DNA of 64,000 bases, taken from the NCBI RefSeq assembly GCF_001625215.2, contig NC_030383.2:57650949-57714948 (forward strand), read 5' to 3'. The translations under genes were made by a program, and so were the position numbers. The notes under the pieces were generated by a model. That model saw only the letters and a program-made list of their open reading frames with translations, was not told the origin of the DNA and searched no databases. Every line of letters starts with the position of its first letter. Within the stretch, counting starts at the first letter, position 1. Source of the stretch: Daucus carota subsp. sativus (taxonomy: Eukaryota > Streptophyta > Magnoliopsida > Apiales > Apiaceae). This document shows, in pieces, positions 8,982 through 34,348 of this stretch.

Positions 8982-9790
8982 ATGGTGACACTGAAACACG
9001 ATAGCCATGACCACGAACTTGATCTGACCGAGGTGGATGCATATATGGTAGGCAAAGGCAAGTGTGGTGTTTGCCGAATGCCTATTGCTGAAGCCTCTTC
9101 AATATACAAATGCCTTAAACAAGATTGTCCCAATGATTCATTATCAATATTTTTCTTTCTCCACAAAACCTGTGCAGAATTACCGAAACAAATCAAACAC
9201 GCCCACCACCCACAACACTCCCTTATTCTTGCCCGTGGATTTAATCATGAAGTTTGGCAGCTTTTAAAAGGGGCTTATCCACAACTCAGGGCTTGTAGGC
9301 TTTGTTTCCGCAATATAAATGAGCAAATGTGGGTTTACATGTGTGAGGTTTGTTGTCAAACGTATACCTCACCATTTAAACCTTATACAAGCAGAGTTTG
9401 GTATGAGTTTGGTTTGTGCATAAGCTGTGCTAAAATGGAACCAGTTCTTTATCATCAAGGACATCCAAATCACACTTTGACCTTACTGCGGAGGCCAATC
9501 TCAGTAATCTGCAGTGCATGTGGAATTTGGGAGACTAGTGAGGTATGTTATACATGCCTCCCGTGTCAATTTTGGATTCATAGCAGTTGTGCTGCTTCAC
9601 CGCCCACAATTAGGCTCCGAGTTCACCAAGACGACACTCTGCACCTCATTTATTCCATTCCTGACAAGTACCGAGGCTTCAGCAAGCATTGCCAAATCTG
9701 TAAAGACGAAGTTAGGACAGATAAGTGGGCTTATTTTTGTGAAGACTCTGGGTATTTCGTCCACATGAAATGTGCCACAACATTTTTAGC

Positions 9791-9835
<45 letters not shown>

Positions 9836-9855
9836 ATCTCTATCTCTCCCCCTCC

Positions 9856-9890
<35 letters not shown>

Positions 9891-11269
9891 CCCCTCCCTC
9901 CCTCCCTCCCTCCCTCCCTCCCTCTCTGTTTTGTCTAATATTTTAAGGATCTCTCTGTTATCTATGTGACTACAGTGTGCTCATTCCAATCAAAACTTAA
10001 CACATGTCATTTTGTAAAAGATTATGTACCCAGTTCTGCGCATAAATCATTTTTACTATTACAAGTGCTAATTTATTTTCTCAGCGGTTACCGGTTGTAT
10101 GAATTTCTTACAGGTCTGGAGAAGAAACGATTAAATTTGAGGAGGTGGAGGAGGACCATGCACAGACACATCCTAATCTTCTGCAATTTCCATTGTCCAG
10201 CACCGATTGTTTAATCACGAATCTCATAGGCAAGCCATTCAACCAAACCAACCTAACAACAGAACCTCTAATTAAGCATTGGAGTCATGACCACCCACTA
10301 ATTCTCAACAACGAAGTTAAATTCAAGGATGATGATAGTGATGATGATGATGATTATGATGAGAGGTACTTTTATAACGAGATTTTGCAATGCAATGCAT
10401 GCACTACATCAATCTCTAACGAACACAAATACTATGCTTGCATCCTCTGCAACTATTTCCTCCACACATTCTGCGCCAAATATTTGCCTCACGAGTTTCC
10501 TGCAGGAAAATGTGAGCAAGACCCTAATCACTCACTCAACCTCTCTTACTCGAGTTTCTTAGGCCCTATATCTGTCACCTACTGCCAATCTTGCCGTTAT
10601 GCAACCAACGGATTCCGCTATACCTGCAACACTTGTTCTGAAATTACTGATCTCCTCTGCTGCTTGTCACCCGAAAAAATCAAACACGATTTTCACAAAC
10701 ACGCCCTTGTCAAGCATCTGAATTCTGATGTATATGCCTTCAACATTGCATGCAGTTTATGTTCAGACGCCATATTATTCGGCTACTACTACAGATGCCA
10801 GACATGCAGCAATGTGCAGATCCACCAGCACTGCGCAATGTTATATTCAAAAACCATTAGGCACCGATTCGACTCCCACTCGATCACACTGATCTATCCT
10901 CCCATCTACTACAAGGGCCTTAAATACTGCGAGATTTGTGAGATGCAGGTGAACCCTGAAGCTTTTTTGTATTTGTGTCGCCAGTGCGACCAATGTTTTC
11001 ATCCCAAGTGTACTCGGCCATCGCAGATTGTGAAGCTACGAGGTAAAGTACTTGTTGGTGGAGTTCATGCACATGAATTGACATTAGTGGCAATAGACAA
11101 AGATGTGTACCCTCAGCGTATTCATAAAGCTCTCACCTGTAGTCAAGGACATGAGAGTGAACCTGTGGGCATGTTCTTACAATGTGCTCGTTGTAATTAT
11201 CTGTTGTGTAGAATTTGTTTAATAGCTCTTTGGAAGGCTATTCTCAAAGAGCTAGAAAATGAAGATTAA
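8982..11269 (+). CDS. DC1-domain zinc-finger protein A
   Basis: Exons 8982-9790 and 10114-11269; 654 residues. The start MVTLKHDSHDHEL is shared with C and E; a longer in-frame extension lacks an ATG. The DC1 pattern is visible throughout: His9/His11 then Cys28-x2-Cys31, and recurring CxxC / HxxC sets such as CYTCLPCQFWIHSSC, GYFVHMKC, CNACTTSI, YKGLKYCEICEMQVN and QCARCNYLLCRIC. There are about four modules per exon. The intron is phase 2 (exon 1 ends GC, donor GTACTC). An acidic stretch (DDDSDDDDDYDE) opens exon 2. DC1 proteins are plant-specific C1-like zinc proteins; a few have been linked to stress, light or defence responses, but biochemical function is mostly unknown. There is no signal peptide or membrane segment. 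The intron starts with a long CT repeat, and a TRIM lies upstream. Confidence 0.9.
9794..9936 (+). repeat. CT/CCCT microsatellite in the intron of gene A
   Basis: Alternating CT with CTAT and CCTCCCTC variants for about 140 bp, starting three bases inside the 5' splice site (GTA then CTCTCT). An ORF reading through it yields only Ser/Leu/Pro and is not coding. Confidence 0.95.
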
Positions 11270-12060
11270 GCATATGAAAAGGGCATTCAAGTTCTTGCTG
11301 ATCATACATTTTTGTATTGTCTTGAAATTATTGTGGTGTGATTACAATAAAGATCGATATATTTAGTTTATACCGGTTGTGAACTAAATTATACTTCCAC
11401 CGTCCCAAATTAACTGTCGTCCCAAATCAAGATCCATAATTTTTTTAGATCTTTAGCCATTTCCACTGGAAACCAAAAGCCAAACTTAAGCCAAACTACT
11501 CAAACTGAATCTCAGGCCATCAACTTTGAAACGCAGAACCCGAAACATAAATCAACACCAACCTGCGGAAACTGAATGACTCCTGAACAGATGTTAACGC
11601 AAATAAGAGAACTATACTAATGAAGGAAGATTTGGGACGGTGAAGCTGAGCAAAAACATGTCAGTCTCAATTAGTAAAGTGTGGGTTCTGGCATTGTAAA
11701 AGGGAGAGAGAATGAGGGAGAGAATGAACAGATTTTAAGATCTGGGATTTGATTTACCTATTTAGGGTTAAAACAAAGCAGGGCTGTGCGGCAGATCAGG
11801 GTCTTGGAGCATTTCTAGAGCATTCCCAACTTGTAAGTAGGAGAGAGAAATGAGGGAAAGGGTGAGAAAAAAAAGGAGAAAAGTGAATATTTTATTGTTC
11901 GAAAAAGTATGAAGAATGGTTCCACAATTCTTAAAAATGAAGAAACTGCTCTGCTGGAGTTTAAGGAACTGCTTTGCTGGAGTTGTGTTTTCTGTCATAT
12001 TCCTTATTATAATAGCTTAGGACGAAACACAACACGAAATTGTGGTTTGAAGTGATATTT
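11270..12060. other. Intergenic, gene A 3' flank
   Basis: A likely poly(A) signal AATAAA lies near 11347. A CCGTCCCAAATT-like Stowaway end occurs near 11400 and a GGGACGG near 11636, possibly an old MITE. No gene is supported. Confidence 0.4.
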
Positions 12061-12063
12061 TGG

Positions 12064-12246
12064 TTCTGTTCTAAAAGTCGGTGATTAATCACGATTAATC
12101 ACCGATTAATCCATGTTCCGTAGCTCGCCGAACTGATTAAATCTCCGATTAATCACCGATCAATCCGATTAATTCAATTAATCTCCGATTAATCCTTGTT
12201 CCGTGACTTCGCCGATTAAGTCCGATTCCCGCTTTCTACAACACTG
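12064..12246 (-). mobile_element. hAT-like MITE, copy 1
   Basis: 183 bp, reverse complement of the copy at 14351-14533. Terminal repeats are CAGTGTTGTA at one end and TTCTGTTCTAAAAG at the other; the middle is built of ATTAATC/GATTAATCG blocks. The flanks TATTTTGG (12056-12063) and AATTTTGG (12247-12254) agree at 7 of 8 positions. It lies inside an older repeat (ACACAACACGAAATTG on the left, GTTGTTAAATAGT on the right) related to sequence at 44.65 kb. Confidence 0.82.
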
Positions 12247-12254
12247 AATTTTGG

Positions 12255-13058
12255 ACATTTTTTAAGGAAGCAACAATAGAGGCTTTTTGTTGTTAAATAG
12301 TACTCCCATTGTCCCTCTCAATTGTTTACATTAAGAGACGAGTCTCGACACACATTTTAATGCTCTTATAAAATATAGTTTGATAAATTATGTTGAACTT
12401 TTCTTCTTTTGAACGAAGGTTTAATGTTTATTTTTCAAAAAAAAAAAAAAAGGTTCATTGTACCAAAAAGAATTTTTTAAAAAAAATAAGTAACAAAACT
12501 ATGTTTTATATGCGCTTTAATATGCCTGCCGAGCAATGCAAAAAAAAAGTGTAAAGAAATGAGAGAGACAAAGAGAGTAACATTTTGTGCCATTTTTCAA
12601 ATGAAAACCTTTTGAGACTAAACAGTGACATTTGGGCCAGTACCTATTAGTTACTCTCTGCTTTGTCTCTTTCCCCATTTTAATTTGCGGAAACATATGA
12701 TTGTCTTGTGATTTTTTGGTCTCAAGAAAATTTTGTAAGATTCAAGCTTTGATATATCTAAAACTCCATGTAGAATGGTTATAGTGGCCATGTCTTCAAT
12801 TGTTTACATGTTTAAAACGTGTTCTAAATATTGAGTTGTATAAATGTAACAAGCTTGCTTCAAGCCTTCAACTATCAAAGATTAGCACATGAGTTACTTA
12901 GATATGTCAAACCCTTCTCATTAGTCCTTAACATTGTACAAAAGATGATAATTAAATATGGTATCACAACAGGACTCTTCTTAGGAGGCGGTTGGACAGT
13001 AGATGAGAATGAGAATCGGAAATTTGAATGAGGGGTATGGAATGAAGGGTACCACAGA
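12255..13058. other. Intergenic, downstream of DC1 gene B
   Basis: AT-rich, with A runs near 12439 and 12478 and a possible Stowaway start (ACTCCCATTGTCCC near 12301) lacking a clear partner. No gene seen. Confidence 0.4.
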
Positions 13059-15591
13059 TCAATCTAAAAGATTTGCTTGTTGCAGGGCCAGAATGATCAA
13101 ATCTCTGAATGTTTCCAGAGGCATCAGAAGATCACCGGTAACAGGCACGGGGACACAAAATACACATAAGAAATAATTACAACGTGAACACCGAAAGTAT
13201 AATCCGCTAGCAATGTTGCCATGGCCATGTCCTTGACTGCAGGAGAAAAATTTATGAAAACGCTCGGGGTATCTATCGTTCTTTTGGTACACTAAAGTTA
13301 ATTTGTGGTGATGAAAATCTGGACGATCTTCCATAATGCCCGTCTTGATGTTATACGGAGGCATAATGCATTCGGGATGAAAACAATGATCACATCCAGT
13401 ACAGCGAAACAACCAAGTTTCTTGATTCACTTGTATCTCACATATCTCGCAATATTTTGTGCCCTTGAAATATATTGGAGGATACAACAAGGATATGGTG
13501 TGAGAGTCCCATCGGTGAGTCATGCTTCGTGGAATCACGAAAGCACAGCATTGGTGGATTTGGATGCCACTGCAAGTCTCACATCTGTAATCAAAGCCGC
13601 AGACTATGAATTCTAAGCACAAGTTGCATGTTTTTGCTGAGGCCTCGGAGTAATCACTGATTGAATTATAATGCTGAATTAAGGGGTGACTGTGATAATC
13701 ATGTTTGATCTTTTTGGGAGCCAAACAACAGAAAATATCACAATTTGTGTCGCAGATAAAGCAGGAGTAGATGAATCCATTGGTGATATTTCCACAGAGG
13801 CAGCAACGCGAAAGTTTAGAAATATAGTACGTGAGTGAAAGAGAGTGTTGCGGATTTACTAAACATTTTCCTGCTGGCAATGTCCGTGGTAAGTGATTGG
13901 CGCAGAAAATGTGGAGAAAGAAGTTGCAACCGAGGCAGGCGTAGTACTTATTTTGATTTGAGATGGGAAGAGTGCATCCGTTACATACTATCATGTCATG
14001 AATATGATCACTCTTATCTTTGCCCTTGCCCTTAAATTCTTCCAAAAGGATCAGTGGATGTTTCGTATGACTCCAGTGATTTATCACGAGATCATCCTCC
14101 TCCTCCTCCTCCTTATCATCTTCTTTTATCCGGTTGCTTGACTGGTGCTGTTGCTGTCCCATCAGAATCGCGATCAAGGAGTCGGTCATATGTAATGGAA
14201 AATGAGGAAGTTGGAGGTATGTTTCTGCAACACTCTCCTCCTCACATTTTGCTTCCAAATTTTCTTCTGATCTGAAATACTTGATCCAGTCAGAAAGTAA
14301 AGTGAATAGGAAAGACGCGGTAGTATAATGTATGTATACCAAGTGTCAAGCAGTGTTGTAAAAAGCGAAAATCTGACTTAATCGGTGAAGTCGCGGAATA
14401 AGGATTAATCGGAGATTAATTGAATTGTTCGGGGATTAATCGGATTGATCGGTGATTTATCAGATATTTAATCAGTTCGGTGAGTTATGGAACAGAGATT
14501 AATCGTGATTAATCACCGACTTTTAGAACAGAGGTGTCAAGTAACTAGTATTATTCAACACTCCCCTCGGTCCATGCGACTGAACAAGACAAATAACAAA
14601 CCAAACACATTATGTAGCCAGTTCATCTAAAACCTTAAGGTATTAGTCGTATTTAATGCATTTATGCCAATGTGAAATAGGAAGTATGAAACACATATGA
14701 ACTAAAAAATAGGGGAGCAGTTTTTATTTTTTTAAACAGAATTTGAGAAATATATATTTATGAAAAGCGGAAAGAAATTGACAAAAGAAGGAAGGATTCA
14801 TACGCTAATAATGCAGCAGCACATAATATGTGGACGAAGTACCCAGAATCTTCACAAAAATAGGACCAATTATCTTCCACAACTCTGCTTTTGCAGATGT
14901 GGCAATGTTGTATGAAGACGCGGTACATGTGAGGAATGGAATAGATGAGGTTTAGAGTGTCCTCCTGATGAAATCGGAGCTTAATGGTGGATGGTGAAGC
15001 AGCACAAGTACTGTGGATCCAAAATTGACATGGAAGGCAAGTATAACACATGTCTCTAAAAATGTAACCACAAGCATCACACCCTGAATTGATTGTCGTC
15101 GCCACTAAGGTTAATGTGTGCTGCTCATGTGCTTGATGATCAAGCATCGGCTCTGTTGTAGCACATTTTATGCACAAGCCATACCTGAATAAAGTAACAG
15201 ATTTAGCAGAAAATATGTCGACTGGATATGTATCACGACAAACCTCACAATAGTAGACCGACATTGTTTCAGTAATTTCACACCAACAGAGGTCACAAAT
15301 GTTGGCATCTGGAACAGGATAGTTTGGGAGAGTGTTATTGAAGTGACGGCCAAGGGTGAGCGGATGTTGTGGGTGGTTAAGGTGTGTGATTTGCGTCGGT
15401 AATTCTGCACACTTTTTGTGAAGGAAGAAATGGAGAGGGCCATCCTCTTCAAGGCAAGTGTAGATGGGATCAAAGCCTCCAGCAAGAGGCAAATCACACA
15501 TTCCACACTTACCTTTCCCTGCCATACTAATATCCACCTCCTCTATCAACTTCAATTCATGCTCATGGCTTTCGTGTTTCATCGTGTTCAT
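13059..15591 (-). CDS. DC1-domain zinc-finger protein B
   Basis: The only complete cluster member on the minus strand. Exons 15591-14804 and 14271-13059; 666 residues. The start MNTMKHESHEHEL matches D and F in style; Met4 is an alternative. Exon 1 carries about four DC1 modules (CGMCDLPLAGG, FFLHKKC, CDLCWCEI, CYTCLPCQFWIHSTC, HCHICKSRV, GYFVHILC). Exon 2 carries four more (CNGCTLPISNQNKYYACLGC, FIYSCFIC, CNLCLEFIVCGFDYRCETC, YCEICEIQVNQETWLFRC, CSRCNYFLCVFC), after an acidic DDKEEEEEDD stretch. The phase-2 intron donor is GC|GTATGA. A hAT-like MITE sits in the intron and a second copy lies downstream in the opposite orientation. The C-terminal tail after the last zinc motif (about 30 residues, hydrophobic then LLD) differs from A, C and E. 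Its molecular role is unknown. Confidence 0.9.
14351..14533 (+). mobile_element. hAT-like MITE, copy 2, in the intron of gene B
   Basis: 183 bp with ends CAGTGTTGTAAAAA and TTTTAGAACAGAG, flanked by the perfect 8-bp duplication GTGTCAAG (14343-14350 and 14534-14541). Same length as copy 1 and inverted relative to it. Confidence 0.92.
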
Positions 15592-15670
15592 CCTTTTGAG
15601 AGGATTGCACTGACTAACAAAGAAATGGATTGCAACAAGTTTGTTCTACATATCCTCTTTATTTTTCATT

Positions 15671-15710
15671 TTATATATATTACTAAGATACCTTGCTTGG
15701 GGGAGTAAAG
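15671..15710 (-). promoter_or_regulatory. Core promoter of DC1 gene B
   Basis: On the minus strand, CTTTACTCCCCCAAGCAAGG followed by TATC (15710-15687) precedes the TATA box ATATATATAA (about 15680-15671), roughly 80 bp upstream of the ATG. Confidence 0.7.
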
Positions 15711-15721
15711 ACTATAAGAGG

Positions 15722-15897
15722 GCGTTTGGAAATGTGCATTTCATTTGAAATGATGGATTTCAAATGACTGATAGATTTCAAATGACAAAAATTGAGTTGT
15801 CATTTTAAATTCTCGGGTTTATATTGATATTTGAATGTCAGGATTATTTGATCAAATCCAAAATTTTAAATGAAATCCAGGTTTCCAAACATGCCAT
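15722..15897. mobile_element. hAT-like MITE with GTTTGGAAA ends
   Basis: Begins GGCGTTTGGAAATG and ends CATTTC-like sequence followed by TTTCCAAACATGCC, with CATTTGAAAT repeats inside. Such ends are typical of short hAT-derived elements. No clean duplication was resolved, so the limits are approximate. Confidence 0.55.
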
Positions 15898-15899
15898 AA

Positions 15900-16440
15900 A
15901 TTTAATTGCTGGCTATGGCTAGGGAGCTCAGAATAATCATCGCAACAAGTCAAGGATAATGCGAGTATGTTTGCAAATCAATTAAAGAATTAAAGGCTTT
16001 AATTGATTATTAAAGTACTAGGTATCGAGCATACCTAAAACCTCAAGTTGCTAGGATACTGAAGCTCCTCTTCACTTGAAGCCCCACTTTGGATCGAAGA
16101 GTGGATACTCACGTCGATCTTTGGGCAACCTCAACCTGAGCTCTAATACTATGTAAATTAATTAGCGTATCTAAAATCCTAAGTGTTAGCAGTGTGGCTT
16201 AATAGCAGGACTAGATGTGTGAGCTTTAGCTGAGGTATGTGACCGTGTTGTAACTTCGTGATAAAGATATACGATTCAGTTAATACTCAGATTAGCTAGA
16301 GCGTGTAGCAAATCTGATCAGATCAAAGGAAAAGGTTTGAACTTGACGAGACTATCAGGCTGATGAACTAACTGCGCTGCTGTAGTGCATTTTATGTTGT
16401 TTTGTCTTCGACTTTTATGCTGTAATGCATTTTCACCATT
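15900..16440. other. Intergenic between genes B and C
   Basis: No ORF or recognisable repeat was identified. The part from about 16420 on starts to match the region upstream of gene A. Confidence 0.4.
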
Positions 16441-16441
16441 C

Positions 16442-16480
16442 AGTTTATAGTTATGATACAATTATAAACACAACGTCTTA
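16442..16480 (+). other. Empty site corresponding to the TRIM
   Basis: TATAGTTATGATACAATTATAAACA here matches the joined flanks of the TRIM upstream of gene A (TATAGTTATGATACAAT / ACAATTACAAACA) with a single ACAAT and no insertion. Confidence 0.88.
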
Positions 16481-16768
16481 AATGTATACAATTCAGGGGA
16501 CGGTGGGAGTATAACGGAAGAATTGAGATACATTCTTAAAGAAATGCTGAAGCAGGAGATTGCTGAATACGTTTGTCTACACTGAGGCCTCTGGCTCTGC
16601 TTTATTATAAAATAATCTGCTAAAGCAGAATCAAGCTCAATCTAATTTATATGACGAATATTTTTTATGTGTTGCAGGATTTTACTTATTAATTATACAT
16701 GATACTTTGCTTACAATCTTAAAGTAGGTGTTTAGACATCTTTAGCAAACAAGCTAACCATCAACTTG

Positions 16769-17035
16769 TTGAGGTGTTGATCCTCTTTTCCTTCTAACTC
16801 TACACGATCTAGCGTTTTGAAACCTAAACGCTATTTCATGTAACGCCACACCGTGTTATGTTTTGTAGTGTTTTTCAGACCTAAACACAACACGATCTAG
16901 CGTTTTCTATCAAAAATCAAAACACTGGATTATTCTGTCGTTAATAAATGATATTTTGGGTCATTTCTCATAACTCTATTATTTTGGACATTACTTATGG
17001 ATTTTGTGGCATCTGGGGCCTTTTCTCAACACTTG
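16769..17035. mobile_element. Insertion in the promoter of gene C, absent from gene A
   Basis: Relative to gene A (ATCAACTTG joined to AGCATAAGCATTGG), gene C has about 267 extra bp, beginning TTGAGGTGTTGA and ending TCTCAACACTTG, with ACTTG at both junctions (16764-16768 and 17031-17035). GTTGAG/CTCAAC forms a short inverted end. Inside is a repeated ACACGATCTAGCGTTTT segment. The family is not named. Confidence 0.7.
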
Positions 17036-17195
17036 TTCATAAGCATTGGTAAGATCTGGTTTAGATGCTAATCAATACACTAATCTATCTTTTTGGCCAG
17101 GCCCGCAACTCAGATTCCTCTATCCTAGACTTGTGATGAAGGTTATTCCTAGACTTAACAAATCAAAATTAGCTTGATTAACTTTAATGTCTTTA

Positions 17196-17226
17196 CTCCC
17201 TGGAAGCTTGGTATTGCTATATATAG
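17196..17226 (+). promoter_or_regulatory. Core promoter of DC1 gene C
   Basis: CTCCCTGGAAGCTTGGTATT followed by the TATA box CTATATATA (17218-17226), about 130 bp before the ATG. Nearly identical to gene A. Confidence 0.7.
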
Positions 17227-17355
17227 CACGGTAAAAGATCTGGGAGGACATATGAATCGTGCTTGTTTTAACCTGTTTCGCCTTTCTAATCTGTTTTAAA
17301 CCTTTTTTTTCCCATCTAAACTTGTTTTTTCTTCAGTAGTCACCTTACTCAAAAA

Positions 17356-19361
17356 ATGGTGACACTGAAACATGATAGCCATGAGCATGAACTCAATCTT
17401 ACAGAAGTTGATGCTTATATGGTAGGGAAAGGCAAGTGTGGTGTTTGCGAAATGCAGATTAATGAAGCCTCTTCGATATACAAATGCCTTAGAGAAGATT
17501 GTCCTAACAATTCGCTATCATTATTCTTCTTTCTCCACAAAAGCTGCGCGGAATTACCAAAACAAATCACGCACCCTCACCACCCACAGCACTCGCTTGT
17601 CCTTGGCCGTGAGTATAATCAAGAAATTGTGAAATTGACGAGAGGATCACTTCCACACCTCACAGCATGCAAGCTTTGCTCGCGTCAGATAGATGAACAA
17701 ATGTGGAACTATTTTTGTAAGGCTTGTTCTTATGAGTTTCTGCTTCCAACCAATGCATACCTACATATTTTTACGTTTTCTTTGTGCATAAGATGCGCTA
17801 TAATGGAGCCGGCTATTCATCATGAAGGACACAAGCATCACAGATTAACGTTACTAAGGAGGCAGCTCTCGTTAATCTGTGATGCTTGTGGAATAACAAA
17901 AGAAAATGACTTTTGTTATTCATGCCTCCCGTGTCAATTCTGGATCCACAGCAGTTGTGCTGCTTCACCAGCCACCATTAAGCTCCGGTTTCACCAGGAC
18001 GACACGCTCCACCTGATCTATTCTGTTCCTCACATGTACAGAAGCTTCACGAGACACTGCCAAATCTGTAAGAATGAAGTTTTGAAAGATAAGTGGGCTT
18101 ATTTCTGCGAAGACTCTGGATATTTCGTCCACATAACGTGTGCCAGAACATTGTTAGCGTACGCTCTCTAACTCCTTGTTTCAACTAAGTCTATGAATTC
18201 TAAGTCGGTTTCTCATTTCTGACTGCATGTGTAATTTTTTTCAGATATGGCGAAAATGAGATTAAACACGAGGCAGAGGAGGAAGAGGAGGATTATGCAC
18301 AACCACATCCTGATCTGCTGCAATTTCCATTGCCTAGCACCGACTCTTTAGTCGCGAATCTGCTGGCATACCACCAATTAAAAAATCCATCAACCATAAC
18401 CAATCCAATAGCAGAGGAGCCAGTAATTCAGCATTGGAGTCATGAACATCATCCATTGGTTCTCTCGGAAAAATCTACTTTCAAGGGTGATGCTGACAGT
18501 GATGATGATGAGAACGACGACATCTTAATTTGCAACGGATGCACTACTCCCATCTTAAATCAACACAAATACTATCAGTGCATCCGCTGCAACTACTTCC
18601 TCCATATTTCCTGCGCCAATCACTTGCCAATCAAGTTCCCCGCGGGAAAATGTCTAGCAGACCCTGACCACTCTCTCAACCTCGACAAATTAGAAATTAA
18701 ATTGGGACGTAATTTATCTATTGCCTTCTGCCACTCCTGCCATCTACCAACCAATGGATTCGGCTATCGTTGCAATAGCTGTTCCAAACTTACTGACATC
18801 ATCTGTTGCTTGTTACCAGACAAGATCAAACACGATAGCCACAAGCACGCCTTGGTCCAGCATTTTAATCATCCTTCATTCAAAATGTACCAAAACATTT
18901 GCACCGCATGCTTAGCACCCGTGCTGGATGGATTCGACTACAGATGTGAAACATGCATCGACGTCCAGATCCATCAGCATTGCGCGATGCTATATCCAAA
19001 ATCCATTACTCACCGCTTTGACTCGCACACAATCTCTCTGCTATATCCTCCAATATATTACAAGGGCATTAAATACTGCGAGATCTGTGAGCTTCAAGTC
19101 AATCCAGAAGCTTGGTTGTATTGGTGTCGCCACTGCGACCAATGTTTCCATCCTAATTGCATTCGGGCATGGCATAATATGAAGCTTGGCGACAAAATAT
19201 TTAATGGCGGAATTCACCGCCATAAGTTAACATTAGTGGCAATAGACAAAGATCGATACCCTCAGCGTATTCATAAATCTCTCGCGTGTAATCAAGGACA
19301 TGATAATGGCAGCAGTCTGGACGTCTACTTGGAGTGTGCTGGTTGTTTTTTTATTTTGTAG
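17356..19361 (+). CDS. DC1-domain zinc-finger protein C
   Basis: Exons 17356-18158 and 18245-19361; 639 residues. It is the closest relative of A over promoter and coding sequence. Exon 1 modules: CGVCEMQI with FFLHKSC; CKLCSRQI with CIRC; CDACGI with CYSCLPCQFWIHSSC; HCQICKNEV with GYFVHITC. Exon 2 modules: CNGCTTPI with CIRCNYFLHISC; CHSCHLPTNGFGYRCNSC; CTACLAPVLDGFDYRCETC with HQHC; YCEICELQVNPEAWLYWC with CFHPNC; then CAGC. The intron is only 86 bp (donor GC|GTACGC, acceptor TTTTTTCAG). The 3' end differs from A and E: two bases are missing just after CAGC, so translation stops at ...CFFIL and the last CxxC zinc pair is lost. The rest of the protein is intact. It may still be functional. 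Confidence 0.9.
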
Positions 19362-21793: not shown

Positions 21794-24213
21794 ATGGCAA
21801 CAATCAAGCATGACAGGCATGAGCATGAGCTAAACTTGATAAAAGGCGTCGATGTCAACATGGCTGGAAAAGGTGCATGTGGGGTGTGCGAAATGCCTCT
21901 TATTGGAGCCTCCGATCAAATATACACTTGCCTCGAAAAAAATTGCCATATCAATTTTTTCTTCCTGCACAAAAAATGTGTAGAATTACCCACCCGAATC
22001 ACCCACCTTAACCACCCTCAACACCCCCTCACCCTCGGCCACCACCTGATCACTCAAGAACTGCTGAGCTACGTGTCGCCAGATGCCCCCTTATGCGACA
22101 TTTGTCTCCGCGGAATTGATGAGGCCATGTCTGTCTACTACTGCGAGGTCTGCAGTGAAGTGGTCAGTGTGTCATCTACTAAATCTTTGTCTTTATTCGC
22201 GTACCTCTTGTGCATAAGCTGCGCGACAGTAGAGTCTGTTCTTGATCATCCAGGACACGAGGCACACATTTTAACCTTGGTGCCCAGGTTGATATATTCG
22301 AGGTGTGATGCTTGTGGTCTGCAACAATATGACATGTGTTACACATGTCTCGAATGTCAATTCTGGATCCATGTGAGTTGTGCTGTTTCTCCACCTACCA
22401 TCAAGCTCCGATTTCACGAGGATGATACTCTGCATCTCGTCTATTCTGTTCCTCCCATGTACCGCAGCTTCCTCAAGCGTTGCAGCATCTGCAAGAACCC
22501 TGTTTTGGAAGAATATTGGGCTTATTTTTGCGAAGATTCAGGGTATTTCGTCCACATTCGTTGTGCAACTAGATTGTTAGCGTAAGGATGCTCCCTCCTT
22601 CACTGTTTTGAATACAATTAACAAATTTTAGCTGATACTCCCTCCGTCCCAACCATTTTTTTACACTTTCCTTTCTGAGATGTCTCGTCCAATTCTTCAC
22701 ATCTCAAACCTACTAAATATAGTAGCTTCTATAATATAAATCAACTACTCCCACTAATTTTATCCACTATACTTACTTTATACATTAAATATTATCAGAC
22801 AGTCACACCACTATCCTCCTTTTCTTACTTTTTTACTCTTACTTTACTTATTTTCTTAACCTCCGTGCCTAAAAGAAATGTAAGCATTTAGTCCGGACGG
22901 AGGGAGTATAGTTTTTTAGTGTAAAAACATGTCATTACATGCATACATGCATCTTTATGGTTTTGTTTCCTTTTCTGACTTGTTCAATGTTTCAGATCAG
23001 GTAATTTTTCTGAAATTAAACGAGACGAAGAGAATGATGGAGAAACATACCCTGATCTGCTTCATTTTCCATTGCCTACAAAGGATTCTTTAACCGCGAT
23101 TCTGATGACAAAGTACCAGAACCTAATTAAAGAAGAAGGTGATGATGACCATACTGGTGTCGATGGCAGTGAGGACGATGAGGAGGAGACTTTACTGATA
23201 GATCACTGGAGTCATCTGCAGCATCCACTGATTCTCTTGGAAGAAATTAAGGATGCTCATAATGATAGTGATCATATCCACGACATGTTAGTCTGCAACG
23301 GATGTACTCTGCCCATCTCAAATCAAATAAATTACTACGGATGCCTCGGCTGCAACTTTTTTCTCCACATTTCTTGTGCTAAACACTTGCCACTGCAATT
23401 GCCACCCGGAAGATGTGTAAATGACCCACAACACTCTCTGCAGCTCTATTTCTATCTAAAACATCTGAATGCTACACTTGCCTAGGATTAACCAATGGAT
23501 TCATATATGCCTGCAACATCTGTTCCACCACTTATGATATCTTTTGTTGCTTATCACCCAAGAAGATCAAACATGATTGTCACAGCCACCCCCTGGTTCA
23601 GCAATATTACGCGATAAATCCAAGTATTCTTCGCAGTAGCTTATATGAATCATGCAATGCATGTTCACAATTCATAATTTGTGGTTTCAGATACAAATGT
23701 GAGACTTGCAGTGGCATCCAGATTCACCAACATTGCGCCCTATCATTTCCCAAAACCATGTCTCATCGATGGGACCCTCACATCATGTCCTTGATATATC
23801 CTCCAATATATTACAAGGGCATAAAGTACTGTGAGATCTGCGAGATGGAAGTAAACAGAGAAGGCTGGTTGTATCGGTGTAACAAATGCGATCACTGTTT
23901 TCATCCTACCTGCATTGTACCACCTCATAACATGAAGACTGGCATTACCCTAGATCATGATTCTCATCTCCACAAGTTAACTTTACTGATGATAGACACT
24001 CATAGATACCCGGCACGAATCAATAATCTTCTCCAGTCGTGCAGTCGAGGACATGTCAGTAATCAAAAATTTAACTATCAATGTTTGGGGTGTAATTATA
24101 TTTTATGTTGGAATTGTGTCGATGGATATAGCAAAGAAGATATTAACAAGCCTTATAGATGGCTTCTAGATTATATTTATGAGCTCCCGAGTACAGAAGG
24201 TCGTTCGGCTTGA
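21794..24213 (+). pseudogene. DC1-domain gene D, single-base frameshift in exon 2
   Basis: Exon 1 is 21794-22581 (788 nt, exactly the length of gene B exon 1) and intact: MATIKHDRHEHEL, CGVCEMPL, FFLHKKC, CDICLRGI, CYTCLECQFWIHVSC, GYFVHIRC. The donor is GC|GTAAGG. Exon 2 starts at 22996 and reads CNGCTLPISNQINYYGCLGC before stopping at 23483-23485 (TAG). Immediately before, near 23469, the frame shifts: from 23470 the sequence continues in another frame as CYTCLGLTNGFIYACNIC, then CCLSPKKIKHD, CNACSQF, CETCSGIQIHQHC, YCEICEMEVNREGWLYRC and CLGCNYILCWNC, to TGA at 24211-24213 with no other break. One missing base explains it. As written the product would be 425 residues, losing about three modules. 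Recent loss, or an assembly error, are both possible. Confidence 0.88.
22638..22906. mobile_element. Stowaway MITE in the intron of gene D
   Basis: 269 bp starting CTCCCTCCGTCCCAACC and ending GTCCGGACGGAGGGAG, flanked by TA on both sides. Typical Tc1/mariner-derived ends. Confidence 0.9.
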
Positions 24214-25780: not shown

Positions 25781-25875
25781 TGAAAGATTTGGGGAGATAT
25801 ACTAATCAAACTTGTTTTAACCCTTTTTTCCATTCAAACTTGTTTCAACTTTCAGCCCATTTTTCCGAAGGATCA

Positions 25876-28324
25876 ATGGTGACCCTGAAACATGATAGCC
25901 ATGACCACAAACTTGATCTAACAGAGGTGGATGATCATATGGTAGGCAAAGGCAAGTGTGGCATTTGCGAAATGCCTATTGCTGAAGCCTCTTCGATATA
26001 CAAATGCCTCGAAAAAGATTGTCCTAATAACTCATTGTCCATAGTCTACTTTCTACACAAAACCTGTGCAGAATTACCAAATCAAATCACACACCCTCAC
26101 CACCCACAACACTTGCTTGTTCTCAGCCGCGGATACAATCAACAATTTAGAAGAGTGACAAAAGGATCATATCCCCGCTCGACGGCTTGTAATCTTTGCC
26201 TGCAGGATATAAATGAGCAAATGTGGAATTACATGTGTGTGACTTGTCATTCTGCGGTCCAGTTTACAACTGATCGGTACTTGCACTTCTATAAGTTTGC
26301 TTTGTGCATAAGATGTGCTATTAGGGAGCCGTTTCTTCGTCATCAAGGACACCAGCATCACGCTTTAACCTTGTTGCGAAGACCAATCTCAATAGTCTGT
26401 GATGCTTGTGGAATTGGTGACAGTGACATCTGTTATACGTGCCTCCCGTGTCAATTCTGGATCCATAGCACTTGTGCTGCTGCACCGGCCACCATTAAGC
26501 TCCGGTTTCACCAGGACGACACTCTACGCCTCATCTATTCTATTCCTCACATGTACCAGGAGTTCAAGAAACATTGCAGCATCTGCAAGGGAAAAGTTGA
26601 GAAAGATCACTGGGCTTATTTCTGTGAAGACTCTGGATATTTCGTTCACATAAGATGTGCCACAACATTGCTAGCGTATGCTCTCCCGTCTCTATGTTAA
26701 TTCGACATATTTTTGAGTGCTAATTAATTTTATCTGATATACTGATGAGTAATTTTCAAGATGGTGGCTAAAACTTTCAATTTTTTACAAAATGTTGGCT
26801 TATTTTGCAAAATAACAAAACTGTGGCCGGACTTTTCCTCTGCTTTTAAAAAAATGGTTATCATCACTTCTTGTTAATGATACGCCGTTAAGGATTAAAA
26901 ATTAAAGAGTGTTTTCAAGATGGTGGCTAAAGTTTGTTGATAATCAGCAATATTTTGTGAAAATTTGAAAATTTTAGCCATCATCTTGAAATTTATTCTT
27001 TAATTTTTAATCTTTGATGGTGTATCATTAACAGGAGTTGGTCGCAGCCATTTTTTCAAAAAACAGAGAAAAAGCCGAGCCACAATCTTGTTATTTTAGA
27101 ACTTCGGCCAATAAAAATTTTGAAACTTTGGCAACCGCCCTGAAATTTGTCTTAATTTATTACAGGTCTGGAGAAAATGAGATTAAATACGAGGCAGAGG
27201 CGGAACCTGAGGGGCACGGACTCTTTCCTGATCTGCTGCAGTTTCCATTGCCTTGCACCGACTCTTTAGTTGCGAATCTGCTTGCAAATTACCAATCAGG
27301 CAAGCCATTCTTGGCAAAAAAAAATAAAAAATCAGGCAAGCCATTAACCAATACTGATCCAATGAAAGATAAGCCAGTAATCAAACATTGGAGCCATGGT
27401 CATCCATTAATTCTATTGGAAAATTTTGATTTTGAGGATTACGCTGACAGTGAAGATGAGACGGATTATAACAACATAGATGAGATGTTGATATGCAACG
27501 GATGCACTATTCCCATCTCAAACGAACACAAATACTATGGCTGCATCCGCTGCAATCATTTCCTCCATAGTTCTTGTGCCAATCACTTGCCACTGAAGTT
27601 CCAATGTTTTCAAAACCCGAAACACTCTCTCAAATTAAAAAAATCAGGAACTAAATCAGGACTCGTAACCATCCTGTGCCACCTTTGCCAGCGAAGAACC
27701 AATGGATTTCACTATCACTGTCACAGCTGTTCTAAAAACATCGATCTAATCTGTTGTTTATTACCCGACAAGATCAAACATGAGTGTCACAAGCACACTC
27801 TCGTTCAATGTTACACTTCTCCTTCATACGATCATGCAGCAAGCGATTTATGCAATGCGTGCTGGGAACCCATATTTTGTGGCCTCAACTATAAATGTGA
27901 GACCTGCAGTGATGTGCACATCCACCACCAATGCGCCATGTTTTATCCAAAAAGCATTAGGCACCGCTTCGACTCTCACTCAATCTCTCTGTCATATCCT
28001 CCCATTTTTTACAAGGGCATTAAATACTGCGAGATCTGTGAGCTGCAAGTCAATCCAGAAGCCTGGTTGTATCGGTGCTGCAAATGTGATCAATGTTTCC
28101 ATCCTCTCTGCATTCGGACATGGCATAATATGAAGCTAGGCGACACGGTTTCTCTTCGATCACTTCACCACCATGACTTAACATTAGTGATGATAGACAA
28201 AGAAATATATCCACAGCGTATTCACAAGAATCTCTGTTGTAGTCAAGGACATGATAACGACACTGTGGACATGTACTTGCAGTGTGCTGGTTGTAATTTA
28301 TTGTTTTGTAGATTTTGTAACTGA
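25876..28324 (+). CDS. DC1-domain zinc-finger protein E
   Basis: Exons 25876-26675 and 27166-28324; 652 residues. The start MVTLKHDSHDHKL groups it with A and C; the in-frame upstream extension is 5' UTR. Exon 1 modules: CGICEMPI / YFLHKTC; CNLCLQDI / CIRC; CDACGI / CYTCLPCQFWIHSTC; HCSICKGKV / GYFVHIRC. Exon 2 modules: CNGCTIPI / CIRCNHFLHSSC; CHLCQRRTNGFHYHCHSC; CNACWEPIFCGLNYKCETC; YCEICELQVNPEAWLYRC / CFHPLC; CAGCNLLFCRFC at the end. It keeps the terminal CxxC that C has lost. The acidic stretch after the intron is short (DYADSEDETDYNN). The intron (26676-27165) is almost filled by a foldback MITE. Two AATAAA signals follow the stop within 90 bp. Confidence 0.92.
26747..27153. mobile_element. 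Foldback MITE filling the intron of gene E
   Basis: Outer inverted ends GAGTAATTTTCAAGATGGTGGC and GCAACCGCCCTGAAATTTGT (imperfect complements) enclose a second, inner palindrome (26874-27033) whose arms start TAATGATACGCCGTTAAGGA and end TTGATGGTGTATCATTA. No sure target duplication, so the ends are approximate. GAGTAA ends place it with the Mutator-like MITEs here. Confidence 0.7.
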
Positions 28325-28985
28325 TTCTTGATTGTTACAAACAATCGAGAATCAATAAAATTCTGTTAGCAGCATTTTGCAACAAACTATGTATCAATAA
28401 AATTCTGTTATTTCGACAACTTGCCTACATCCCAGAGGCTGCTAATATTATTAGAATTTACAGAGTGCAGAAACAGATTCACCGGACTTTAAAGCGGTTT
28501 CCGACTTTAAACCTGAAAATGTCTGTATTAAGTTAGAAACCGACTTTAAGTCCTGACACAAAAAAAAGAAACCGACTTCAAGTCAAAAATAAGCGAGAAA
28601 CTGACTTAAAATCATAAGTTAGTTTGAGTTTTTTTTTGAGTTTTTTTAATTATAAAAGTTATGCATAAACCCAAAGTTACTCATAAATCATTAATAAGTC
28701 AAAATTACCCGAACAGACATTTTAAACTCTCAGTCATCATGTCACGTAATAAACCTGAGTCAAACGGGCTCTTACTCACTAACAATATCTCTAAGTGTTT
28801 TTCTGAATTGTTTACCAAACTACTCCCACCATCCCAAAAAAAATATCGTTTTTGACTTTTGATTAGTCACATTTTGACTTTTGATTAGTCAAATTGACCA
28901 TAATTTGATTGAAATTTATGTATATTATATAATGAAAAAAATTAAAATTATATCATTGGAAAGTACATCTAGTCTATTTTAAAAT
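28325..28985. other. Intergenic, gene E 3' flank
   Basis: Holds AATAAA signals near 28355 and 28397, then about four degenerate copies of AAACCGACTTTAAGTC (28490-28610), then a CCCACCATCCCAAAAAA Stowaway-like end (about 28825) and a duplicated TTGACTTTTGATTAGTCA. No gene. Confidence 0.45.
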
Positions 28986-29001
28986 ATAACTTTTGATTTC
29001 T

Positions 29002-29720
29002 TTTTTTTGAAGCAAAGGTGTTAATCTAATAACAAAAAGCCATACGGCATCTACACCAATGATCGAGTCGAACAAACAGTAATTTGCAATCGCCTGTTCT
29101 CATAAGGAGACAGTTAAACGATATTTTGAAGAAAATGTATATACAAATACAAGTACCCGCTTCATGCATCCTCGTTGATTTACTGGTACCCTCTTCATCA
29201 TGCCCTGACAGAGCTATCGTTTGAGCTATCGACCAAAACGATGATTCCATACAAACTTTCATCACCAAATCAAAAACCCCGCTTACAATTAAGAAGCGAA
29301 AAACAAAACTCTCACCGGGGAGAGAAAACAACCTTAGATCTGAAGCACAACCACAAAAACAAGAGAAATCAGACTGAAAATCCACCCGCTTGAAAACAGA
29401 GAAGAAAGACACCGAAATCTCCGATGGTTTTTAGATCTAAGAATTCTCCCGAGAATAGATCCGGAGCAAAACCACAAAAAAAGAGAAATCAGACTGAAAC
29501 TCACCCGCTTGGAAGAGAGACGGTGAAATCTCCGATGGTTTTAGATCTAAGTTTCCCGAGAAGATGTATTATTCAAAAAACTAAAAAGAAAAACAAAGCA
29601 ATCAAGTGATTCGGGGCTTTCCACCGGTGAAAACCGATGGAAGCCCCAGGCGGCTACGACAAGAGAGAGACTAGAGAGAATTAGGGTTAAGGTAGAGAGA
29701 ATTGCTTATTTGGTTTATTG
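29002..29720 (-). mobile_element. Poly(A) retroposon (non-LTR, non-autonomous), copy 1
   Basis: 719 bp between two copies of the 16-bp duplication TAACTTTTGATTTCTT (28986-29001 and 29721-29736). The A-tail lies at the low-coordinate end, so it reads on the minus strand. It shares with copy 2 the 3' text GTAGATGCCGTATGGCTTTT and the hairpin region GGCTTCCATCGGTTTTCACC. The internal ORF is not conserved enough to be called a gene. Part of the interior (29300-29540) is itself duplicated (CACAAAAA..AGAGAAATCAGACTGAAA twice). Confidence 0.85.
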
Positions 29721-29820
29721 TAACTTTTGATTTCTTAAAATAATAAATAAATGTTTTTTAGTATTTAGTCAAAAATTAGTCTTGACTTCTTGAAAATATT
29801 GGAAAGGACATGTGATTAGG

Positions 29821-30562
29821 TAGAGCTGTTCACGAACCGAGCCGAGCCGAGTTTTGACCGAACCGAGCCGAGCTTTAATTTTTTTTCTGACGAGCCGAGC
29901 CGAGCTTTTTAATCGAACAAAAATTGTGTTCAAGCTCGGCTCGTTAACTAACGAGCCGAACACGAGCTTGTTCGCGAACAAATACGAGCCGAGCCGAGTC
30001 GAGTCGAGTCGAGCCGAGCCAGAAAAAAAATAAGGACAAACCGCTAGTTGACTCTTAAAATAGCTAACCTAATAATTTCAATTTTTTTGAAACTTTGTTT
30101 ATATCACTAAAATGTATATATGTTAACATCCATACAGTTGGATCGGTAAAAAATATTTTTTAAAATATTGAAACACTAAATTAGGATTAAACACTAGTTA
30201 GCGGTACTAGTCAAACTTCTACTTGCCTGTTAAAAACCAAATAAAATTATTATTTCCTAAAATTTTGTTTACATCACTAAAATATATATATATATATATT
30301 ATGTTGAATTCTGAGTCCAATAACATATATAAATTATAAAAAAATCCCGAAAATATTACATTTTTTCGAGCTTTAACGAGCCGAACTCGAGCCGAACGAG
30401 CTCGAGCCGAACATACTAAAAGCTCGGCTCGAGCTCGTTTACTTAACGAACAATTTTTTGTGTTCGAGCTCGTTAACTTAACGAGCCGAGCCGAACGAGC
30501 TCTTAACGAGCCGAGCTCGAGCTTGTTCGCGAACAGCTCGGTTCGTTAAACAGCCCTAAAAA
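29821..30562. mobile_element. hAT-like non-autonomous element, second copy
   Basis: About 742 bp with ends TAGAGCTGTTCACGAACCGA and TCGGTTCGTTAAACAGCCCTA, and many CGAGCCGAGC / GCTCGGCTCG blocks. The middle (30030-30350) is AT-rich with (TA)n near 30277. The flanks TGATTAGG and AAATTAGG agree partly. Same family as 24593-25043. Confidence 0.75.
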
Positions 30563-30918
30563 AAATTAGGGACAGGGATTGAACTCTCACACTGTATCCT
30601 CCTAGCTGGTCTCTGGTCTGCAGACTGAACATGTACATGTCTCAGTTTTCATGTTGATCTTTGGTAAATGAAGACCAGCTCCTGAATGCTCCTGAGTTTG
30701 TGTCATTATTCAACACGAAGGCCCTGAGAGCATCTTATATCATATCTTTATTCTTCCAACAAAAAATCAGAAAGAAGAAGCAGACAAACTTCTAAGACAA
30801 ATTAAGAAAGAGAAGTAAACATTAAGTTGAAGCCTTTATGCTTTATTTGATGGACAAACATACTCAAAATATGTTCTTGACTTGCAGGAGAGCCTATTAC
30901 ATTGTCTCTACTTCCCAC
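30563..30918. other. Upstream spacer of gene F
   Basis: No gene or element recognised in this stretch. Confidence 0.4.
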
Positions 30919-30953
30919 CTCCCACGCAAGGTATCGCGGTTAGAATTATATAA
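30919..30953 (+). promoter_or_regulatory. Core promoter of DC1 gene F, left half
   Basis: CTCCCACGCAAGGTATC (30919-30935) is followed by TTATATA (30946-30952), where the TATA box is expected. A MITE starts at once after it. Confidence 0.65.
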
Positions 30954-31244
30954 GAGTAAAGTATATGTTAGTGGCCGAACTTTATCAATTTTTTCATTTT
31001 GGTGGCCGTAAATTCAAATTTGCAATACGGTGGTCAATGGTCATATATTGTCTTAATTCATCAAAAAGGTGGCTGAAGGCAACTTTTTTGAGGAAAAGAA
31101 GATTAATTTTTTCTCAGAAAAATGGCCCTTAGCCATTTCTTTGAAACATAAAAACAAAGTCTGGCCACCTATTTGTAAATTTGAAATTTCGGCCACAAAA
31201 GTAAAAAAACGGATAAAGTTTGGCCACCACTTTGTATTTTACTC
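30954..31244. mobile_element. GAGTAA-type MITE inserted at the TATA box of gene F
   Basis: About 291 bp with long inverted ends: GAGTAAAGTATATGTTAGTG... on the left, and on the right the complement of GAGTAAAATACAAAGTGGTG; both continue into GTGGCC-A-ACTTTATC. TTATATA occurs at both junctions. Its translation makes the false N-terminal extension MAEGNFFEEKK before gene F. Confidence 0.82.
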
Positions 31245-31255
31245 TTATATATACC
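31245..31255 (+). promoter_or_regulatory. TATA box now nearest gene F
   Basis: TTATATATACC at the right MITE junction, about 80 bp upstream of the ATG at 31333, a normal distance for the cluster. Confidence 0.6.
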
Positions 31256-31332
31256 GAAAGAATGGGGAGGATATGCAGCTCAAACTTGTTACAAACCAAT
31301 ATTTAGTTAGTCATTGCAGTCCTCTTAAAAGG

Positions 31333-33623
31333 ATGAACATGTTGAAACATTACAGCCATGAGCATGAACTGAAGTTGGTAGAGGTGGATGTTAGTATGGC
31401 AGGAAAATCAAGGTGTGGTGTGTGTGAAATGCTACTTGTTGGCGGCTCTGATCCCATCTACACTTGCCTTCAAAAGGATTGCTCCTCCCCTTTCTTCTTC
31501 CTTCACCGAAAGTGTACAGAATTACCAGCACAAATCACACACCTTAACCACCCTCATCACCCGCTTACCCTTGGCCGTCACTTGAATCAAGAAGTATTCT
31601 CAGTACTTCCAGGTGCCACCATCTGTGACCTTTGTGAGCGTGAGATTAATGAAGCAATGTCTGTCTATTATTGCGAGGTATGTACTTATCAAGGACAATT
31701 GATTATGTTAGCCAATAAATCTGTTACTTACTTTCGGTATACCTTGTGTATAAGATGTGCAATAGTAGAGCCAGTGCTTCATCATGAAATACACGAGCAG
31801 CACGTATTAACCTTAGTGGCAAGGTTAATGTATTCAAGTTGTGATGCTTGTGGTCACGTAGGTAAAGATATGTGCTATACATGCCTCCCATGTCAATTTT
31901 GGATCCATAGAACTTGTGCTCTTTCTCCCCCCACCATTAAGCTCCAATTTGACCAGGACGACACTCTGCATCTCATCTACTCTATTCCTCACATGTACCG
32001 CGCCTTTTCAAGACATTGCCGTGTCTGCAGAGATGAAGTTATGGCAGATAATTGGGCTTATTTTTGCGAAGATTCTGGGTATTTTGTGCACATCAATTGT
32101 GCCACTACATTATCAGCGTATGACCCTTCCCCTTACTGTTTTTTTTATGCTTCAACAACTGTTTACATTTAAAATTTCATGTTTTTACTGTTCTGTTTTG
32201 TAATTTGACGAGCACAATGTATTTCAGTTCTGGAGAAAAGTTTGAGATGAACTGTGAAGACAAGAATCATGGGGAATCATACCTTGAATTGCTGCATTTT
32301 CCATTGCCTAGCACCGACTCTTTAACTGCCATTCTGGTAGAAGAGTACCAATCTAGCAACCGAATAAAAGAACTAGAAGATAGTGATGATGACAGTGACT
32401 TTGATGGTGATGATGATGAAGAGGAGAAAGAGGTCGAGGAGGAGGAGGAGGAGGAGGAAGAGGAGGTCGAGGAGGAGGAGGAAGGGGAGGTCGAGGAGGA
32501 GGAGGAAGAGGAGGTCCAGGAGGATTCGTTAGTAATAAATCACTGGAGTCATCTGGACCATCCACTGATCCTCTTGGAAGAGTTGAAGGATATTCATAAT
32601 GATGAGAGTGATCGAATCCATGACATGTTAGTATGTAATGGATGCACTATGCCGATCTCAAATCAGAATAAGTACTATGGCTGCATCGGTTGCAACTTTT
32701 TCCTCCATCCGTTTTGTGCCAATCACTTACCACTGAAATTGGCACCAGGAAAATGTGCAAGACACCCACAACACTACCTTCGAATCTTATATCTTACAGG
32801 AACAAGCAGATGCATGAAATGCCAACTAGTAAGCAATGGATTCGTATATTGGTGCTCCATCTGTCTTGAATTTTTTGATCTGTTTTGCTGTTTGGCACCC
32901 GAGAAGATCAAACATAGTTACCACAATCACCCCCTGGTCCAGAATTTCATTTCAAGGAAAGACTTCTCACACAGCACAGGAGATACCTGCAACGCGTGCT
33001 TAAAAAATGTACTTTTTGGCTTCGTATACAGATGTCAGACTTGCAGCGAAATCCAGATCTGCCAAAGGTGTGCTCTCTCCACCCCAAAAACCATATGTCA
33101 CAGATGGGACTCTCACAAAATCTCCTTGATATATCCTCCAATTTATTACAAGGGTCTGAGATATTGCGAGACATGTGAGCTGGAGGTAAACCAAGAAGCC
33201 TGGATGTACCGCTGTGGTGAATGTGATCAATCTTTTCATCCTACATGCATCCTACCACTTTATAACATGAAGCTCGGCAGAATTATAGCTCTTCCAAATC
33301 TGCACCACCACAAGTTAACATTAGTAATGATAGACAAAATCAGATACCCTCAGAGGATTCATAAATCATTCTCCTGCAGCCAAGGACATTCAGACTTAAA
33401 CATGAAGTTACATCTTCATTGTGCACTCTGTAATTATTATATATGTATAAATTGTGCCTATGAACATATTAAGGTTGAAACTTTCATGCCTTACATATGC
33501 TATCTAGAATCTTATTTTACACTCCCACACCCAAAACAGAGAGACTCTTCTCCTCCAAGGGCTTCAACAAGCATGCTCGAAGAATTGTCAGACTTCATCA
33601 CTGGATCAAGTTCGGGATCTTAA
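31333..33623 (+). CDS. DC1-domain zinc-finger protein F, with Glu-rich tract
   Basis: Exons 31333-32117 and 32228-33623; 726 residues, the longest of the cluster. The start MNMLKHYSHEHEL groups it with B and D. Exon 1 modules: CGVCEMLLVGG / FFLHRKC; CDLCEREI / CIRC; CDACGH / CYTCLPCQFWIHRTC; HCRVCRDEV / GYFVHINC. In exon 2 an acidic region holds an almost pure Glu/Val tract (32418-32525, residues about 326-361). Four modules follow: CNGCTMPISNQNKYYGCIGC; CMKCQLVSNGFVYWCSIC; CNACLKNVLFGFVYRCQTC; YCETCELEVNQEAWMYRC / CALCNYYICINC. A tail of about 60 residues ends SDFITGSSSGS. The intron is short (110 bp, donor GC|GTATGA). The promoter carries a MITE at the TATA box. Coding sequence is intact. 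Function unknown beyond zinc-finger family membership. Confidence 0.92.
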
Positions 33624-33951
33624 ACCAGGGTTCAGCGGAGACCTTGGTATATCTAGCATTTGCAAGGTAAATTTCCATATGCTTGCAAAATATAAGCTTG
33701 TTTAGATGTATCAATTTTTTTAAGTTAAGGTCTCATGACAAGGATTTTAACATGTGTTTATGCTTATGCCTTGTAATATGCATTAGGGTGAAGTGATCAA
33801 TTAAACATCATTATCAAGTTGAGTCCTTTTGTACCATCGTTAACTCAGCCTCGTCATTTGTTGTGTTAGCATCAATCCCTTTTCCAGGCCGGTGATTTGC
33901 TAGTATTTGATTAGTTCAACAAAAATAAAGAAAGAAATTCTTTATTGATTA
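33624..33951. other. Spacer between gene F and the DC1 fragment
   Basis: Downstream flank of gene F. Nothing recognised. Confidence 0.4.
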
Positions 33952-34348
33952 TTAGTTCATATACAGCCTTTCTGGGACAACACTAGGGAGAAGCCTATGT
34001 GCACAACTTTCACATAGTTGATAATTACAACCTGCACATTCTAAATACAATACTTTGATGCCAGAACTACCATCAACAGTCCCCATATGTAGTCTATCAC
34101 ATTTAAGGTTAATTTGTGCCGGTGTAGATTATAGGTTGATGGATCTGTCCTCGTACCAAGCTTCACGTTATGAGGCCGGATGCACAAGGGGTGAAAACAT
34201 TTATCACATTTGCGGCAATGATACAACCAAGCTTCTTGATTGACTTCCAGCTCACATTTCTCACAGTATTTCAAGCCCTTGTAGTAGATAGGAGGATATG
34301 TCAAGGAAATGGAATGAGAATCCCATTTGTGAGTGATCGCTTTGGAAA
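33952..34348 (-). pseudogene. Fragment of a B/D/F-type DC1 gene
   Basis: On the minus strand the text begins in mid-module (KAITHKWDSHSISLTYPP) and reads YKGLKYCEKCELEVNQEAWL, CFHPLCIRPHNVKLG and HRHKLTLNVID. The expected RYPQRIHK...CSQGH block is missing, and the frame changes. In the new frame LYLECAGCNYQLCESCAHRL follows to TAA at 33952-33954. So one deletion of roughly 60 bp joined the two parts out of frame. Exon 1 and most of exon 2 are absent; sequence upstream of 34348 is AT-rich and unrelated. RWD/KWD and NQEAWL place it with B, D and F. Confidence 0.85.

Follow-up and report, generated by a model that had tools for sequence, protein, structure and literature searches.

The 64,000-nucleotide stretch of carrot (Daucus carota subsp. 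sativus) DNA analysed here, referred to as the window, lies at C3:57,650,949-57,714,948 and contains a tandem array of genes of the plant DC1 family (CHP/CHR; PF03107, C1_2), whose Cys/His zinc-module proteins are associated in other plants with stress and developmental responses. Six complete genes of two exons each span positions 8982-33623 of the window, arranged as A(+), B(-), C(+), D(+), E(+), F(+), with B alone on the minus strand. They belong to two lineages, ACE and BDF, that alternate along the array, and a seventh, broken copy (G) is located to the right of F.

Gene A has its first exon, which contains DC1 domains, at 8982..9790 (Pfam C1_2 E-value 2.6e-25) and its second at 10114..11269 (4.4e-18). 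Gene B is transcribed leftwards, with exon 1 at 14804..15591 (5.3e-25) and exon 2 at 13059..14271 (1.3e-17). Gene C (exon 1, 17356..18158; exon 2, 18245..19361) was assigned to the family by alignment to A and E, and its exon 2 ends earlier than theirs, with the final Cys pair outside the frame. The first exon of gene D (21794..22581) has a C1_2 match in a scan of the genome (C3:57673201); its second (22996..24213) is frameshifted, with overlapping open frames at 22979-23485 and 23425-24213, as read in this assembly, where an assembly error is possible. Gene E (25876..26675 and 27166..28324) was also placed by alignment, and gene F (31333..32117, 5.6e-27; 32228..33623, 1.9e-22) encodes an acidic Glu-rich stretch in exon 2.

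All six genes share one organization, in which a single phase-2, GT-AG intron of 86 to 532 bases separates a first exon of ~262-270 codons from a second of ~372-465 codons. Scores against the C1_2 profile are 64.2-94.3 bits for the six exon pieces scanned, two each from A, B and F, where the curated cut-off is 26, such that repeated C1_2 domains, as elsewhere in the DC1 family, are present in both exons of these three genes. Among the putative zinc-ligand columns (those with Cys or His in at least four of the six genes), 32 of 37 are invariant in exon 1 and 37 of 45 in exon 2. From family membership, each gene is predicted to encode a protein of repeated Cys/His zinc modules. A profile of exon 1 has a sole match in the PDB at an E-value of 0.01, to 1v5n (E-value 1.9e-5), titled 'PDI-like Hypothetical Protein At1g60420'.

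One ancestral gene gave rise to two sister types, X (A, C and E) and Y (B, D and F), before the copies within each type were made. Exon 1 was aligned whole and exon 2 as two pieces either side of the D frameshift, and all 105 unrooted six-gene trees were scored in 11 partitions (exons, pieces, halves, third positions, proteins and joined). The ACE|BDF split has a resampling-estimated log-likelihood (RELL) support of 0.997-1.001 in all 11; the best tree lacking it is worse by 77.6 (exon 1), 85.6 (exon 2) and 171.4 (joined) log units, and the highest value that any such tree attains in the approximately unbiased (AU) test over the 11 partitions is 0.0101 (exon 1 third positions). An earlier note, made from the letters of this DNA, had described the six genes as two sequence groups alternating from A to F, and both groups are thus upheld as lineages. 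Fixed differences between them are found at 14 of 281 columns in exon 1 and nine of 583 in exon 2, and comparison with four sister genes (see below) places derived states on both sides.

Separate trees of the two exons, a check proposed in the earlier note, give the same result when rooted with further DC1 genes from this genome. In outgroup set 1 (30 other DC1 rows for exon 1 and 21 for exon 2, with two duplicates and rows with in-frame stops excluded) the six genes are monophyletic at 100/100 in both exons, ACE has support of 100/97 in exon 1 and 97/95 in exon 2, and BDF 87/73 and 99/97; the exon 1 tree carries a program warning, with long branches meeting. Outgroup set 2 contains nearer genes recovered by a genome search with B exon 1 (T, P-S and U) plus distant rows, seven for exon 1 and six for exon 2, and supports ACE at 100/98 in exon 1 and 90/99 in exon 2 and BDF at 96/95 and 97/98, although the order of branching among ACE, BDF and the sister genes is left without resolution by exon 2. 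Both exons support the lineages and neighbours never group, and therefore neither a pairing of neighbours nor a conflict between exons was found at the lineage level.

The nearest relatives among the matches listed for B exon 1 are four sister genes on chr3 at 62.49-62.52 Mb (P-S; C3:62488833-62517115, L037-L040), one on chr3 at 39.74 Mb (U; C3:39736024-39738320, L042) and one on chr9 at 0.80 Mb (T). They have the two-exon layout of A-F and form the sister group of ACE plus BDF in exon 1; unlike the A-F array, they are a single lineage without alternation. In that listing, the six genes have identities of 57-100% and the next near-full-length matches reach at most 49% (P, R, T and U, at 47-49%), while higher matches of 55% and 64% are partial and lie in the sister cluster. 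That cluster contains incomplete or broken pieces: the matched parts of R exon 1, S and V have in-frame stops, and Q exon 1 is in two pieces; a stop in P is at the apparent gene end. U, a close copy, is ~23 Mb away. The family is large in this genome, with at least 150 scored matches in the C1_2 scan, and in the stretches fetched from it 28 of 34 exon-1 matches (two genes counted twice) have an exon-2 match just downstream.

Several short motifs had been offered as lineage markers. The protein starts and the LQFPL and HFPL motifs are correct as quoted, and NPEAW is present in C and E, but A reads NPEAF; RWD and NPE/NQE are present in the genes but are not clean markers against the nearest outgroup genes. 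Tryptophan at the RFD/RWD site is found in B, D, F, G (as KWD) and seven sister rows (six by search pattern and Q by eye), and RFD is therefore the derived state of ACE. NPE is found in A, C, E and six of the seven sister rows, NQE in B, F, T and G, and NRE in D. QFPL is shared by A, C, E and the sisters P, R and U by pattern, and also by Q and T by eye in the alignment.

In the joined alignment the proportion of synonymous differences (pS) has a mean of 0.502 within lineages (0.443-0.557) and 0.612 across them (0.587-0.660), the five neighbour pairs included, and synonymous distances (dS) by the Nei-Gojobori method (NG86) are 0.67-1.02 within and 1.14-1.59 across. Synonymous differences are lower within than across lineages, and it follows that the X and Y types split first and the within-type copies arose later. 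Exon 2 alone has a slight overlap in pS (0.442-0.575 within, 0.563-0.684 across). Depending on the rate assumed, the ages might be on the order of tens of millions of years.

The broken copy G (33967..34343, minus strand) covers the 3' portion of exon 2 and is split between two frames. It falls outside ACE with ultrafast bootstrap values of 99 (DNA) and 86 (protein), and 96 with sister genes added; in the tree with outgroup set 1 it is joined to BDF at 84/47. The highest protein identities of G are to T (61/84) and P (60/83), followed by C (57/81), it has a slightly longer loop in common with the sister genes on chr3 and chr9, and part of it matches E at 78% by nucleotide BLAST. G may thus lie on the BDF side, with the sister genes or in a third lineage. 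A tblastn search with the six genes against the masked window has only G below an E-value of 0.16 among the matches listed, and the 7 kb preceding the window have no DC1 match at an E-value of 1e-5.

The array is probably an old tandem DC1 array that was enlarged through copying of blocks of two neighbours. Tandem arrays can grow via duplication of multi-gene blocks, and the carrot array resembles arrays enlarged in this way in its repeating order of two paralogous types; it differs in that its unit boundaries and branching order are not recovered. In the proposed history, unequal crossing-over involving like sequences would have duplicated an X-Y pair as a block on two occasions, with B inverted afterwards. 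Once an XYXY array existed, crossing-over between X and X or between Y and Y would gain or lose one whole X plus Y unit; because crossing-over between like genes moves whole units, alternation would be self-maintaining without selection on pairing.

The force of the alternation itself was gauged by an enumeration of tandem duplications starting from one X and one Y, in which admissible blocks were weighted equally, an arbitrary choice. Given three X and three Y, the probability of alternation is 0 with copying of single genes only and 0.42-0.45 with blocks of two or more, and on this enumeration block copying is favoured over single-gene copying and mildly over chance. The alternation itself is weak evidence, as two of the 20 possible orders show it; it is the expected residue of ordinary two-gene block copying and does not by itself show that the two types work as partners. 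Other DC1 clusters of the genome, each sampled in part, provide a comparison: the sampled rows at chr2 57.8, chr3 54.9, chr4 20.8 and chr6 36.96 Mb are one clade each, those at chr3 60.6 Mb make up a clade that also takes in a single chr7 gene, and alternation is not seen among the partially sampled rows of any of the five.

Adjacent two-gene block copying permits, by reasoning, only three orders within the lineages, {AC,BD}, {BD,CE} and {CE,DF}. None of these three block histories is rejected by the joined alignment (AU 0.232, 0.379 and 0.352). The arrangement of B, D and F that exon 1 prefers varies with the data used, being {BD} from proteins and {DF} from third positions and from the 3' half. 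That the exons agree on lineages and differ on the order inside them fits near-simultaneous copying, some conversion, or noise. A likelihood comparison of star and resolved trees was set aside for exon 2 and the joined alignment, where all six resolutions beat the star, suggesting that the star tree was poorly optimised.

Several observations weigh against a history of block copying or against the stability of the lineages on which it depends. Exon 1 DNA favours {AE,BF}, an order that no adjacent two-gene block history yields, and it rejects {AC,BD} (AU 0.0096), whereas {AC,BD} is the order favoured by exon 2 (AU 0.783). In exon 1 alone the pS ranges overlap (0.379-0.572 within lineages, 0.496-0.663 across). 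Inclusion of two short fragments, G and V, in the exon 2 tree breaks up ACE as a drawn group, E dropping into an open fork, while BDF stays at 97/98; this is read as resolution lost through the fragments, yet it counts against full stability. Strict alternation is two of the 20 possible orders of three X and three Y (10%, by counting). It also ends at F, given that the next copy, G, lies outside ACE, so the strict alternation that had been described holds from A to F and fails beyond F, where a copy absent from the earlier note is not of the ACE type. Finally, the A-B, C-D and E-F spacers, which the same note had proposed to compare, have no mutual homology at an E-value of 0.01, although at such divergence little survival is expected and the absence says little. 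A two-gene unit copied twice, with B inverted, accordingly stands as the best available history in that the lineages alternate, and falls short in the differing order within lineages between exons and in the spacers; it is plausible but short of proof.

The first alternative is that genes of the same type have exchanged sequence to the point that the order and ages of the copies are unreadable from the tree; this is rather unlikely, though it would be compatible with block copying. It draws on the differing within-lineage orders of exons 1 and 2 and on a tract upstream of A (8399..8974, plus strand) and C (16510..17349, plus strand, interrupted by ~260 extra bases) that is more alike than the coding regions. 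Between about -580 and -181, 369 of 398 aligned positions are the same in A and C (93%, gaps excluded), as are 135 of 159 in the final 180 bases 5' of the start, compared with 172 of 267 at exon 1 third positions. A genome search with 8400-8860 finds two places, A itself and, as two pieces of 91% and 85%, C. Since the tract exceeds exon 1 third positions in identity, it was copied or exchanged between A and C, across B, after the coding regions had split; strong constraint on 400 promoter bases is a less likely cause of the likeness. The tract is a modest, testable example of like paralogues exchanging sequence past an intervening gene. It also counts in favour of the block-copying history, for which crossing-over at such a tract, which would duplicate or delete exactly one A plus B unit, is the mechanism proposed. 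The coding sequences, in contrast, have not been recently homogenised, as 44-56% of synonymous sites differ within a lineage, and ACE|BDF is upheld in each half of exon 1, in both pieces of exon 2 and in the third-position sets.

An origin of the A/C tract as a repeat element was considered and is unsupported, the genome matches being only at A and C (in a search that passes over very common words). The additional bases within the C tract have a 75-81% match in a locus on chr9 (L008, among 28 loci compared). Other upstream regions match over short lengths, both among genes of one type (A/C/E; B/F) and in some cases across types (A/B, B/C, D/E, E/F). Downstream, the longest match is A/B, where the A-B spacer pairs with its own reverse complement (12295-12585).

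Slightly less likely than exchange is a chance order, in which assorted single-gene duplications, inversions and short moves left three genes of each type that fell in turn. Two of the 20 orders alternate, the inversion of B implies that the array has been rearranged, and G breaks the pattern. Single-gene tandem duplication alone yields no alternation, so that single-gene moves would be required, and the five other sampled clusters, mostly one clade each (the fifth with a chr7 gene), do not alternate in their sampled rows.

The suggestion that the two types are kept as partners, perhaps as heteromers, fares worst, and it is very improbable that selection has held them adjacent for proteins working together as heteromers or in balanced dose. 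Both lineages are old (within-lineage dS of 0.67-1.02), their members are all in this one array among the matches listed for one query, and the ratio of nonsynonymous to synonymous change (dN/dS) is 0.24-0.39 in all 15 gene pairs of the joined alignment. This constraint acts on each gene, however, and not on the pair; equal numbers and alternation follow mechanically from block copying; D is frameshifted in this assembly, so that not all copies are intact; and the nearest sister cluster, P-S on the same chromosome, is of one type only. Because both types are seen only in this array, among the matches listed for B exon 1, co-retention is a single case. The stronger form, in which X and Y are obligate partners whose pairs have long been preserved by pair-level selection, promoter exchange between A and C keeping the expression of these like genes matched, is more improbable again.

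Copying of neighbouring pairs is thus preferred for what is, in its biology, an ordinary tandem array with a regular order, and the array is an example of an eye-catching gene order explicable by ordinary block duplication. If the pairs are conserved in other Apiaceae, it would be a test site for pairwise retention of tandem paralogues of two types.

In the parts of the literature seen, no account was found of a carrot DC1 cluster or of alternating tandem lineages. In the portions consulted of work on other plants, 10 of 11 tomato DC1 genes on chromosome 1 are described as clustered (PMC10707348), the tomato and Ipomoea genes are mostly intronless (PMC10707348, PMC13033517), and 13 Ipomoea DC1 genes have one intron (PMC13033517). 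A-F differ from the mostly intronless genes as described there in having one phase-2 intron between two multi-domain exons. Pattern searches outside plants gave nine matches to the exon-1 alignment in viral_contigs and 97 to the exon-2 alignment (five genes, D excluded) in the microbial genome_contigs, none of them a relative by tblastn.

The window has a number of further repeats. A piece of the B intron (14351-14532) has an 81% inverted copy in the A-B spacer (12065-12246), and part of the D intron (22636-22910) has an inverted match at 48277-48720 (71-83%). Self-inverted repeats are located in the E intron (26809-27097), upstream of F (30947-31251) and at 1298-1696, 49369-49911 and 56741-57417 (the last at 90%), and are possibly small inverted-repeat transposons. 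Dense local direct repeats occupy 35149-36542, directly past the cluster. At 57392-59995, on the plus strand, are three open frames that resemble pieces of what we take, from a motif, to be a NAC transcription factor gene.

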